64,000 nt of DNA, taken from positions 310,001 through 374,000 of the forward strand of contig NZ_LT840185.1 of NCBI RefSeq assembly GCF_900177405.1, read 5' to 3'. Origin of the DNA: Allosphingosinicella indica. Its GTDB lineage: Bacteria > Pseudomonadota > Alphaproteobacteria > Sphingomonadales > Sphingomonadaceae. The position numbers and the translations under genes were made by a program. This document shows, piece after piece, positions 42,862-49,562 of the stretch; position 1 is the first letter of the stretch; every line of letters starts with the position of its first letter. The notes under the pieces were generated by a model. It did no database searches and was not told where the DNA came from. It worked only from the letters and a program-made list of their open reading frames with translations.

Positions 42862-42953
42862 TTCACGCAAAGGCGCGAAGGCGCGAAGATGTTTGGAAAG
42901 GTTGCGCCAGCGCTTGCGCCCCCTCCCCTTCGCGGCTTCGCGCCTTCGCGTGA
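42862..42953. repeat. two-armed repeat TTCACGCAAAGGCGCGAAG family
   Basis: The roughly 500 bases between 42513 and 42989 contain no convincing gene. They hold this element, whose 27-base inverted arms (42862-42888 and about 42927-42953) differ by about two bases. Each arm carries repeated GCGCGAAG units. A frame across it (42685-42987) lacks coding character. Confidence 0.75.
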
Positions 42954-42989
42954 ACCATTGCTGCCGCTGTCGCGGACAAGACGGTAGCC

Positions 42990-43421
42990 ATGATGGGCAA
43001 GCACCGTGCGCGCCGTGCCAATGTTCGCTATTCGTTCCGTATGCGCGAGTCGGATGATGCGGGGCGGAAGGTGGCGGCGGGGGCTGCGGGCGGGGAGCGG
43101 CGGGAGCGGGCTCCGCCGGCGCTCAGGAGCATCTTCGAGGCGGCGCGGCGCGGCTGGAACGTAAAGCTCACCTGCTGGCAATGCGGCCACGTCCGCATCC
43201 TCGATTCCGCCGCATTATGGCTGCGCATGTCGCTGAAGGATCTGCCCGACGATCTGCGCGAATTGCCGCGTTACTGCAAATGCACCCGCTGCCGCGACGA
43301 GCGCAACGAAGGCATCAACCGCCCCCGCCTCACCCTCTGCCGCGACGCCCCGACCGGCGAACCGATGAAAATGCCGACCGCGAGGCAATGGAAGGAGGGG
43401 CTCAGGTGGCAGCGGCGGTGA
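42990..43421 (+). CDS. zinc-ribbon protein of unknown function
   Basis: A 143-residue basic protein. Cys pairs CWQCGH (about 62-67) and CKCTRCRDE (about 95-103) form a likely zinc ribbon, with SAALWLRMSLKDLPDDLRELP between them. The first 45 residues are Arg-rich and may include misassigned start. The last 141 bases of this gene are repeated at 43874-44014. It is probably the native gene next to uvrA before the accessory DNA arrived. Confidence 0.65.
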   Translation: MMGKHRARRANVRYSFRMRESDDAGRKVAAGAAGGERRERAPPALRSIFEAARRGWNVKLTCWQCGHVRILDSAALWLRMSLKDLPDDLRELPRYCKCTRCRDERNEGINRPRLTLCRDAPTGEPMKMPTARQWKEGLRWQRR

Positions 43422-43836: not shown

Positions 43837-43845
43837 CCCCGACGA

Positions 43846-44014
43846 TCTCCCCGAGCTGCCGGGCACTCACAATTGCACCCGCTGCCGCGACGAGCGCAAC
43901 GAAGGCATCAACCGCCCCCGTCTCACCCTCTGCCGCGACGCCCCGACCGGCGAACCGATGAAAATGCCGACCGCAAAGCAACGGAAGGACGGGCTGCGGT
44001 GGCAGCGGCGGTGA
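43846..44014 (+). pseudogene. truncated second copy of the zinc-ribbon gene
   Basis: In the frame ending at 44014 the translation NCTRCRDERNEGINRP to GLRWQRR matches the end of the 42990-43421 protein with three substitutions. The upstream part, including the CWQCGH pair, is missing and no start fits. It is a 3' remnant that marks a recombination border. Confidence 0.8.
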
Positions 44015-44085
44015 TCAAAAACTGGCGCAATCTACTGTTACACAGCGTCAGGGAACATAGAGCAACTCACTCAGGATTTACACGC

Positions 44086-44091
44086 TTGACA
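44086..44091 (+). promoter_or_regulatory. possible -35 element before the ATPase gene
   Basis: TTGACA lies 71 bases before the ATPase ATG in the only intergenic space of the island (44015-44161). The -10 is unclear (AGAAAC or AAACAT at 17-19 bases). AAGAAAGG before the ATG is the ribosome site. Confidence 0.3.
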
Positions 44092-44161
44092 CTACGCCGG
44101 ATGACGCGAGAAACATGCTCACCTACATCCTATTAAATTTGCGACCAAGAAAGGCCGGCAA

Positions 44162-45517
44162 ATGCTGACGGGGCTAACGCTCAGGAATTTTCGGGCCTTT
44201 AAGGACCAGTCTTTTCGTTTTCGAAGACTGAACATCTTTATCGGAAAGAACAATTCTGGCAAGTCGAGCGCCCTGAGCGCTTTAAACCTAATTGCCCAAA
44301 CGATCTCGACACAAGAACTCGAGAGCACTCCGTTGCTGTTGAACGGCCAGTTTCAAAATCTTGGTACCTACATTGACGTAGTAAATGGCAATAATCCCCG
44401 GAGAAAGATTGGTATTGATCTGGAGTTCGATCGGTTTTCTGTAAAAACGGAGTACAAATATCGTTCCCAACGTCGAGAGATAGATATTTCGGACTTTGAG
44501 TTACTAGATAGGTCTAAGTCCGTAATGAAATATACGGCACGGAAGGACTCGTACAGTTTATCGGTCAAAGGCCGAGATGTCGAAAAGATATTTCCGTCCT
44601 ATAAGAAGAGGCGACCCAGGTTTATTAATTTTTGGCCAACCAGCATTGTTCCCTCCACCCAGTTCCGATCGTTTGAGGAACGCGATACGCCTGCTTATAA
44701 AACATTGAGGGAGGCGGACATTGCGCTGTATACGGCTCGTCGCAACTTAATGAGATATTTCGATAATTTTGACTCTATCTCGCCGTTTCGTGACCAGCCC
44801 CAGCGGACCTATCTCTATTCTGGTGAAAGCGCAAGAAAAGTCGGTATATCTGGTTCAAATATGGCGACAATGCTAGCTGCGGATGCATCGAAGAGGGGTG
44901 GAATAAGGAAGGATCTCGTATCTAACATATCTTTCTGGTTTCGATACACTGGCATTGCGGAGGGTGTGACTGTTCAGAGTCTAACCCCTCGTCATTTTGA
45001 AATATGCTTGATATCAAATGATGGTAGCAAACATAATATCTGCGATGTTGGTTTTGGCTGTAGCCAGGTACTTCCTGTGCTTGTTGGTGGATTAAATCTG
45101 TTTGATGAAAGCCACCCGGGTTCTTCTAATAAACTTCTAGTCGTTCAAGAACCCGAGATTCATCTCCACCCAGATGCGCAGGCCGCTCTCGGGTCTTTCT
45201 TTTCAAATTTGGCAACTCGCGGCGGACAGATCTTTATTGAGACTCACAGCGACAATCTTGTTCTGCGGATCGCCCGTCATGTTGCGTTGGGGGACATTGC
45301 ACCCGAAGACGTGGCAATATTTTATGTGACTGACCAAGGAGAAGAGCGGGTCAGTGAGATTGGTATTGATGAACATGGAGCGTTCGAGCCACCATTTCCA
45401 AATGGCTTTTTTCCCCAACGGCAGGCGGAAAGCCTTTCACTTGCGCGCGCAGCAATGCGAAAATCATCGTCTCGAAGGACTCAGCTAGCATTTGAATATC
45501 CGGAGCCGACGGCATGA
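44162..45517 (+). CDS. OLD/RecF-like AAA ATPase with DUF3696-like end
   Basis: A 451-residue ABC-class ATPase. It opens LTLRNFRAFKDQSFRF and has Walker A GKNNSGKS (28-35), a signature-like GFGCSQVLP (297-305), Walker B LLVVQEPE (325-332, Glu330 catalytic) and the H-loop ETHSDNL (His362). The end GIDEHGAFEPPFPNGFF resembles the DUF3696 tail of this family. No TOPRIM nuclease is fused, unlike OLD proteins. It is clearly AT-richer than its surroundings, so horizontally acquired. The next gene's ATG overlaps its stop (ATGA), so the two are made together. Confidence 0.9.
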   Translation: MLTGLTLRNFRAFKDQSFRFRRLNIFIGKNNSGKSSALSALNLIAQTISTQELESTPLLLNGQFQNLGTYIDVVNGNNPRRKIGIDLEFDRFSVKTEYKYRSQRREIDISDFELLDRSKSVMKYTARKDSYSLSVKGRDVEKIFPSYKKRRPRFINFWPTSIVPSTQFRSFEERDTPAYKTLREADIALYTARRNLMRYFDNFDSISPFRDQPQRTYLYSGESARKVGISGSNMATMLAADASKRGGIRKDLVSNISFWFRYTGIAEGVTVQSLTPRHFEICLISNDGSKHNICDVGFGCSQVLPVLVGGLNLFDESHPGSSNKLLVVQEPEIHLHPDAQAALGSFFSNLATRGGQIFIETHSDNLVLRIARHVALGDIAPEDVAIFYVTDQGEERVSEIGIDEHGAFEPPFPNGFFPQRQAESLSLARAAMRKSSSRRTQLAFEYPEPTA

Positions 45518-46017
45518 GGCCTTCTGTCGTCGACGCTAACGTGATGAATTATTTTCAGCACGAGCGACTAACCGAGCGCGGAATAGCTCATGATGCAATT
45601 GACGCTATATTTCGAGAGGCAAGTATAGCTCTGGATGAAGAAGGTAAGTGCCAACAGGAATGGCTCGACTGCGCAGCAGGTAAATTCCCGCTTGCTTTGA
45701 GTGACTGGATTAATGACAAATTAGTTGAGCGAAAAATAGTGCTGTTTGCTGATAACGTCCCGTCTAAGTTTCGAGAGTTTCAAAGACTAGGAATCCCGAA
45801 AAAAGATCACAAATGGGTTACTCTATCAATTGCCTCACAATCGCGTGCATTGGTAACGGAGGATATTGACCTTATAGAGCCGCGTCAGAAATCTGCTCCC
45901 GCTAAGGTGAAAAGCAGAATTAAGTCGACATGCAAAGGAACTGTGTCTCGCTGCCTTAGGCGGGACTATGGCGTCAATGTTGTTTGCTGTGAACACGTGC
46001 CGGATCTTTGCGGTTAA
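45514..46017 (+). CDS. PIN-like nuclease, partner of the ATPase
   Basis: A 167-residue protein with a PIN-domain layout: VVDANVMNYF with Asp7, an acidic cluster DEEGKCQQE (41-49), Asp98 in PKKDHKWV, and ALVTEDIDL with Asp117 and Asp119, like the LVTxDxD strand of PIN RNases. The C-terminal third is basic and Cys-containing (STCKGTVSRC, VCCEH) and may bind nucleic acid or the partner. It is translationally coupled to the ATPase. The fold call is from motif spacing only. No antitoxin gene is adjacent. Confidence 0.68.
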   Translation: MRPSVVDANVMNYFQHERLTERGIAHDAIDAIFREASIALDEEGKCQQEWLDCAAGKFPLALSDWINDKLVERKIVLFADNVPSKFREFQRLGIPKKDHKWVTLSIASQSRALVTEDIDLIEPRQKSAPAKVKSRIKSTCKGTVSRCLRRDYGVNVVCCEHVPDLCG

Positions 46018-46090
46018 CGACCAAGGTTGCCGTTGGTCCAAACTATGTTCGATAGTGTGGATTTCTGAAAAAAGCTTGTCGCGGAAGGTC

Positions 46091-46270
46091 ATTCGGCTGC
46101 CTCTCGCTGCGCATCGAGGAGTAACCGCGCTTTTTCCTGGGTGGAGCCTTCACCACCTCCGTCCGCGACCCCGCAAGCAGGGGTGCTAGATAGGCTCCGG
46201 TAGATGACCGCCCCTTCTTCGCCACCGTCTCCGGCGTCCCTTCCGCGACGATCTCGCCGCCCTTTTTGAC
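46091..46270 (-). pseudogene. diverged duplicate of the uvrA 3' end
   Basis: On the minus strand this reads [20 protein letters not shown] then [17 protein letters not shown] and APPRKKRGYSSMR. It parallels the native UvrA end ([41 protein letters not shown]) with many substitutions and a one-base deletion near the stop. Weaker similarity may reach about 46300. With the native gene at 46324 it forms a direct repeat that marks the right border of the island. Confidence 0.85.
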
Positions 46271-46323
46271 TGAGCGTCTCGACCAACTCGGCAGTTTGCT
46301 CAGGACAGACTTGTCGCCGCAGG

Positions 46324-49374
<3,051 letters not shown>

Positions 49375-49384
49375 GGACGGCGGT

Positions 49385-49399
49385 GTTCCAGATTTGTTC
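49385..49399 (-). promoter_or_regulatory. LexA (SOS) box upstream of uvrA
   Basis: On the plus strand GTTC-CAGATTT-GTTC (GAAC-N7-GAAC on the coding strand) lies 10 bases upstream of the uvrA ATG. It is an exact match to the alphaproteobacterial LexA operator; uvrA is a classical SOS gene. Confidence 0.8.
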
Positions 49400-49562
49400 T
49401 GAGGTTGCAAGCGATGCGGATGTCGAGGCCTGACGCGGCAGCGGCGAGATGGTGGTGAGTGCGTCCAAACGCAACCGTACGCAATCCGCAGGCCAATCCT
49501 TCACCGCCGTGCAAATAAAGTTCAAGAGTACGCCAAATAGTTTTGGACGAATGGATAAGTGA

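Follow-up and report, generated by a model that had tools for sequence, protein, structure and literature searches.

Two overlapping genes of Allosphingosinicella indica are best explained, with a probability of about 60%, as a horizontally acquired two-gene anti-phage (or anti-mobile-element) system, in which an ATPase would act as sensor and gate, a PIN-like ribonuclease would act as effector, and growth would be stopped before the phage matures. Both genes lie on the forward strand of a 64,000-nucleotide stretch of contig NZ_LT840185.1 (hereafter the window). The first (44162-45517) encodes P0001, an ABC/OLD-type ATPase of 451 residues with a DUF3696-like C terminus and without TOPRIM, as judged from its reading frame, Pfam, PADLOC and its orthologues. 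The second (45514-46017) encodes P0002, a presumed PIN-like nuclease of 167 residues, recognized from its reading frame and an alignment of relatives. The two genes are joined by an ATGA stop/start overlap (45514-45517, forward strand). A preliminary description had reported both frames and their overlap, an ATPase retaining Walker A, Walker B and H-loop motifs without TOPRIM, and an AT-rich setting; all three observations are borne out, by the coordinates above, by the motifs and Pfam data, and by the GC content, respectively.

Three segments of P0001, read directly from the protein, are what we take to be the nucleotide-binding motifs of such ATPases: Walker A (GKNNSGKSS, residues 28-36), a Walker B-like segment of the EPE type (LLVVQEPEIHLHP, residues ∼325-337) and an H-loop (ETHS, with the histidine at position 362). 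P0001 shares the key residues of these motifs without exception with both of its orthologues, and they are largely kept in three ATPases of the type associated with the PADLOC candidate HEC-03. In Pfam P0001 matched AAA_15 (E=3e-29), AAA_21 (6.5e-20) and, weakly and at the C terminus, DUF3696 (1.6e-4), while no TOPRIM family was matched by either P0001 or P0002. Among PADLOC models the best match was NsnB (1.4e-63, 213.8 bits), which spans residues 1-425, followed by PDC-M55A (1.1e-59, 200.5 bits) and HEC-03B (3.6e-40, 136.3 bits), with weaker matches to AriA (4.9e-32), Old (6.4e-20) and GajA (1.4e-18).

A PIN label for P0002 could be obtained only through its relatives, since no family library labels the protein alone. 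P0002 had no match in Pfam or PADLOC at E≤10, the HEC-03A model included, and none in PHROGs at E≤1; its best NCBIfam model, the PIN toxin TIGR00305, was below the cut-off at E=0.065, beside TruB at 0.068. A hidden Markov model of P0002 and its two orthologues found the ORFs paired with two distant ATPases (L028, 2.3e-5; L080, 3.5e-5) and one HEC-03-type effector (L053, 7.8e-5). When profiles were compared with hhalign, leaving out the effectors of L026 (frame cut short) and L062, the P0002-type profile (5 sequences) matched the HEC-03A-type profile (24 sequences) at 95.7% (E=9.6e-9), against a maximum of 1.5% for 30 column-shuffled profiles, demonstrating remote homology at the level of the families. 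P0002 by itself scored 3.6% against the HEC-03A-type profile. An HEC-03A-type profile lacking P0002 found the orthologues of P0002 weakly (9.1e-4 and 5.9e-3), and a profile of 20 such proteins, also lacking P0002, missed P0002 itself, which at E=2.7 was the second of six noise-level matches among the 676 window frames.

The merged alignment of 29 proteins revealed a shared acidic set. Asp7, Asp41, Glu49 and Asp98 of P0002 are invariant, and Asp117 is Asp in 28 sequences and Glu in one; Asp119 is a further acidic residue of P0002. PIN domains are marked by acidic residues in the order D...E...D...D, and this order occurs in both the P0002-type and the HEC-03A-type proteins. When 22 members of the effector family were searched against Pfam (E≤1), ten families were matched and three PIN families, PIN (five members), PIN_3 (four) and PIN_9 (one), led in members or E-value, with weak best E-values of 0.0029-0.0054 and with P0002 absent from the matches. 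Comparison of an undoubted PIN_3 protein (L112) with four profiles gave nothing above the shuffled controls, and profile searches of the PDB returned no convincing PIN chain, the top matches being unrelated (a kojibiose phosphorylase at 0.25 and a designed TIM barrel at 1.9e-4) and a VapC appearing at 0.67 over 22 residues. AlphaFold models were of low confidence (mean pLDDT 36.5 for P0002 with P0021 and 37.5 for P0002 with five relatives, in the order given). P0002 displays the pattern expected of a diverged PIN nuclease, short of proof, and the family-level evidence favours this assignment. The PIN label of the preliminary description thus stands for the family, through the acidic pattern, the remote homology and the weak Pfam matches of relatives, and fails where P0002 alone is put to the family libraries.

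The pair itself is conserved. ATPase relatives were found in 8 other genomes of 396 from the same order (E 1e-15), in 9 of 385 from the same class and in 18 of 398 from the same phylum (both E 1e-20). Pairs of the window type are rare, as an ATPase at the 60% level occurs in one other of the 396 order genomes. This genome (G816), from another genus of the same family, encodes an ATPase 60% identical to P0001 over the full protein, joined by a 4-nt ATGA overlap to the gene for a 170-residue protein that is 43-45% identical to P0002; the pair (L067) sits in a GC dip (0.466 versus 0.62-0.64), upstream of what is presumably parC. The second orthologous pair (L074) is on the viral contig IMGVR_UViG_2937891427_000008, where the ATPase (50-51% identity) and the PIN-like protein (39-40%) are separated by 3 nt and, judging from the sequence, are flanked by a nuclease-like gene on one side and by a repressor-like gene of opposite orientation on the other. 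That the pair recurs in a second genus and on a viral contig is beyond chance. The PIN-like profile alone found the L074 contig and no other viral contig. P0002 alone, searched across the class, found only the window's own copy, L003 apart, which was set aside (E=0.007, four stops in frame); L002, which matches over 44 residues close to the end of its contig, was also set aside. Searches of plasmids and phages with P0002 or P0021 (tblastn, E≤1) gave no match.

With effectors as queries, an ATPase gene was directly upstream in 12/12 plasmid records from five genera (six were opened and six judged by feature label alone, near-copies included) and in 4/4 viral loci, two of which were members of the query alignment and two new. 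The preliminary description had proposed that the two genes belong together, and in the loci examined their co-occurrence was indeed not rare.

It had also named no system that pairs such an ATPase with a PIN-like protein, which is wrong in part. Plasmids of Rhodococcus, Aeromonas and Azotobacter, traced by the ATPase search, and of Tistrella carry a cassette comprising the ATPase, an overlapping 169-177-residue ‘hypothetical protein' and an ‘RNA ligase family protein'. In the three loci scanned with PADLOC (L014-L016) the effectors (P0004-P0006) matched HEC-03A (3.1e-23 to 9.2e-28), the adjoining ATPases matched HEC-03B (1.5e-109 to 1.1e-133, 365-445 bits) and the third proteins matched Pfam RNA_ligase, none of these ligases matching a PADLOC model convincingly; the other HEC-03 labels used here rest on an in-house profile and on position. 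The adjacency in 3/3 loci, together with the model names, suggests that HEC-03A and HEC-03B are one named candidate system. HEC presumably stands for ‘Hma-embedded candidate'. The term does not occur in the body of the PADLOC article of 2021 (PMC8565338), and HEC-03 is merely listed in the part of a rumen survey that names it (PMC13356809). Open-licence full texts yielded no experiment on HEC-03 or on the window lineage and none that links DUF3696 plus a PIN domain to defense.

The window pair resembles HEC-03 in its layout, an ATPase followed directly by a PIN-like protein of ∼160-180 residues, in the acidic residues of the effector and in the remote homology of both proteins. It differs in four respects. 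P0002 misses the HEC-03A model; P0001 is closest to NsnB rather than HEC-03B, for which its 136 bits compare with the 365-445 bits of the three members; P0001 falls outside the HEC-03-type clade; and no RNA ligase gene adjoins the pair. An RNA ligase gene is present in 16/25 HEC-03 tree rows versus 0/5 window-type rows, one of which (L080) is cut off by its contig end ∼0.3 kb past the effector. No window frame matched an RNA ligase (best E=0.72), and a search of the same genome with one ligase protein, a weak test, gave no match. The sequence data indicate that the window pair belongs to a lineage distinct from HEC-03, novel as a variant and not in kind.

HEC-03-type loci, often with the RNA ligase gene third, were seen at L014-L017, L029, L050-L053, L055-L057, L063, L075, L082, L090, L091 and L114. 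The cassette of Acinetobacter soli is found two genes downstream of a gene for an N-6 DNA methylase; an HNH endonuclease replaces the ligase as its annotated third product, and the annotation splits the ATPase into two parts. The cassettes of viral contigs L090 and L091 directly follow what we take to be an integrase gene, and a search of E. coli genomes with the DNA of the former found nothing closely similar.

A phylogeny of 46 ATPases separates 25 HEC-03-type rows from the window by a branch with 99/96 support. Before the tree was built, L077 and L078 (E=3.6e-12, other neighbours), L062 (its cassette is that of L076) and L017 (a near-copy of L015) were dropped, and L026 was retained as an HEC-03 row despite its truncated effector frame. 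The window, G816 and L074 ATPases group together (100/100), as do six Menshen-like ATPases (100/100); the window group joins L028 plus L080 and the pair with short PIN-like effectors with support that leaves the grouping open (92/93). Partner labels, set by hand and in the case of ORF333 from partner length and position alone, require five changes jointly, the minimum, a value reached in 0/200 shuffles. Taken singly, the HEC-03, Menshen, ‘other' and short-PIN labels need one change each, window-type two and ORF333 three. To place the five window-type rows in one clade, a single change suffices in 2% of bootstrap trees. Partner type thus appears mostly to track ATPase lineage, and a single origin of the window-type effector is unsupported by the tree. 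A PIN-like ORF adjoins 32/46 of the ATPases, the window included, a count that leans to ATPases like the window's as the loci were mostly found via the ATPase.

Two loci, L025 and L059, one of them in the window's own family, encode an ATPase with a short PIN-like effector of 140-143 residues that has no PADLOC match at E≤1. The short type scored 49.2% against the HEC-03A-type profile (controls at most 1.3%) and 8.9% against the P0002 type (controls at most 0.7%). In four further loci (L018, L019, L023 and L027), in P2-like phages (ORF555/ORF333 of P2-EC5) and elsewhere, an ATPase of the superfamily is followed by a partner of 333-350 residues.

Comparison with established systems gave partial likenesses. 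NsnB of Menshen is the best PADLOC match of P0001, whereas the six Menshen-like loci have a 297-371-residue partner and a third gene, which we read as DUF262, neither of which adjoins the window pair, and their ATPases form a clade of their own. According to a passage of PMC10952713, the parts of Menshen include DUF262 and an OLD-nuclease component; neither DUF262 nor a TOPRIM/OLD component adjoins the window pair, which is flanked by uvrA and by an HNH gene and short ORFs. Open-licence full texts contained no mention of Menshen with NsnB. In PARIS the AriA ATPase controls AriB, and the window pair shares with it a related ATPase class, a small nuclease and, probably, a mode of action. The effectors differ, as an OLD-type TOPRIM domain was predicted in AriB, albeit at a weaker score (passage in PMC10952713), while P0002 is PIN-like and matched no TOPRIM family. 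Gabija, Septu and OLD share the logic of an ABC-type ATPase with a nuclease, as reflected in the Old and GajA matches of P0001. Septu pairs its ATPase with PtuB, an HNH protein; the window pair includes none, although only 0.3 kb separates it from an HNH gene on the left. In Gabija, TOPRIM is part of GajA, and GajB resembles UvrD (also from PMC10952713), in contrast to the window, where P0001 is without TOPRIM and no UvrD-like helicase gene adjoins the pair. The candidate PDC-M55 scored below NsnB on P0001 through PDC-M55A, and P0002 hits none of the PADLOC models. The pair seems to work like HEC-03 and PARIS, yet fails membership in either.

The pair occupies an AT-rich accessory segment (44015-46074) bounded by repeats. 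The ATPase and small genes have GC contents of 0.467 and 0.462, respectively, versus 0.673 for the median 1.8-kb stretch of the window; of the 622 overlapping stretches of that length, nine do not exceed 0.50, and every one with 0.55 or less starts between 43101 and 45001, the island of the pair. On the right, a degenerate second copy of the uvrA 3' end (46075-46264, reverse strand; a 131-nt core at 79%, flanked by 35-nt and 27-nt pieces at 89%) precedes a gene whose product, judging from its translation, we take to be UvrA (46324-49410, reverse strand), its C terminus matching in 10/10 relatives' loci fetched; positions 46075-46264 and 46310-46497 are 79-80% identical. On the left is the HNH endonuclease gene (P0003; 43423-43836, forward strand; Pfam HNH, 6.1e-9), flanked by a 177-nt repeat (43245-43421 and 43838-44014, 89%). 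The 3' ends of neighbouring genes are thus partly duplicated on both sides of the slot, as if incoming segments had brought a donor gene end with them. A 27-nt inverted repeat (42862-42954; 93% complementary, 39 nt between the arms) lies left of the slot, and a relative of the HNH protein (L110:4534-4857, 59% over 108 residues) is encoded ∼0.5 kb beyond the AT-rich island at that uvrA.

DNA matching the uvrA-end copy was found in 24/60 genomes, the window's own included, and ten same-genus loci (L102-L111) were hand-picked from the 24. In 10/10 AT-rich DNA is at or near the uvrA 3' end (GC ∼0.43-0.61 in 500-bp steps; ∼0.64-0.69 for uvrA), starting within ∼0.5 kb of the gene in nine and, in L105, at 1.4 kb, where there is a weak second uvrA-end copy (47% amino acid identity). 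Such copies are also present in L103 (76%) and L107 (61%), and in L106 the far side of the island itself is just 0.59-0.69 GC. The window pair is absent from all ten. Cargo was scanned as 10 of 19 island ORFs, from nine islands, those of L106 being left out. Six of the nine islands gave PADLOC matches at 1e-5 or better: an AbiL pair (L103), a PDC-M03A HipA-like protein (L105), PDC-S06 AAA_13 (L108), a beta protein (L109), PDC-S60 (L111) and a PD-T4-6-type kinase, a generic-domain match (L104). Those lacking a PADLOC match displayed, in Pfam, SIR2 plus STAND (L110), NB-ARC plus TPR (L107) and a weak, sub-threshold STAND-like NTPase (L102). The uvrA 3' end (46075-46330 in the window) is likely a site where this genus takes up defence-type genes, a view that rests on the 10/10 occurrence and the mostly defence-type cargo, not on a comparison with other sites; among the open-licence articles listed, no title or opening of an abstract concerned such a slot.

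We infer a defence role for the pair from this context, both the cargo of the uvrA slot and the location of the L074 pair beside a repressor-like gene. The preliminary description had reached the same role; the defence-type setting strengthens it, and the role itself is still a deduction. The ABC/OLD/AriA-class ATPase would sense infection and then free or activate the co-translated PIN-like protein, most likely a metal-dependent ribonuclease. RNA would be cut, host tRNA or mRNA being the best guess, and growth would halt before the phage matures, an abortive outcome for which PARIS provides the closest working analogy of gate and effector. The ends left by PIN nucleases, 5'-phosphate and 3'-OH, are those that RNA ligases such as the ones of the cassettes seal. 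An RNA target is suggested because the cousins carry the ligase gene and PIN ends are sealable; for the same reason the cousin systems look like resettable RNA cutters. The HEC-03 relatives with a ligase would be RNA cutters with a built-in reset, and the window pair a one-way version.

It is unlikely that the pair is instead a toxin-antitoxin module serving addiction or dormancy, with the ATPase as the antitoxin or chaperone that holds a PIN toxin. PIN proteins are commonly toxins, the sub-cut-off TIGR00305 match of P0002 is to such a toxin (hardly above TruB), and AriA of PARIS is deposited as ‘AriA antitoxin' in one entry; classical antitoxins are small, however, whereas P0001 belongs to a class found in defence systems, and defence-type genes occupy the uvrA slot in relatives. 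Improbable, too, is defence through DNA cutting, in which the ATPase would load a PIN/FEN-like nuclease that attacks phage DNA, in the way that Gabija and OLD nucleases act on DNA. The ATPase relatives of solved structure (an OLD nuclease, GajA, Rad50 and AriA) are mostly DNA-acting, but the RNA ligase gene of the HEC-03 tree members points to RNA ends. That the pair is a decaying insertion or has changed function, or that P0002 is not a nuclease, is very improbable: P0002 does fall below detection by family libraries and the slot does hold partial gene duplications, yet both frames are full length with intact motifs, and two orthologous pairs preserve them at 39-60% identity.

Beyond the preferred reading of the pair as an RNA-cutting abortive system, a broader scheme can be entertained, albeit one we regard as somewhat doubtful. 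The DUF3696-type ATPase superfamily may be a general gate for interchangeable effectors, including PIN-like lineages (HEC-03, window and short), the Menshen parts and the ORF333-like proteins of P2 prophages; breaks made by the PIN effectors might be sealable by ligases, some versions having a reset and that of the window being irreversible. The window pair represents a second lineage of ATPase-PIN pairs, one that stands outside a named candidate and offers invariant residues as targets for mutagenesis, and the nuclease plus RNA-ligase cassette of its cousins leads to predictions about the molecule that is cut and the reversibility of immunity. The uvrA 3' end is a place to seek more defence systems in the genus. 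Two of its islands encode different large NTPase-like proteins (L102:5179-7029 and L107:3631-6162) that both end in a cold-shock domain, above the Pfam cut-off in L102 and below it in L107, possibly a part that senses nucleic acid.
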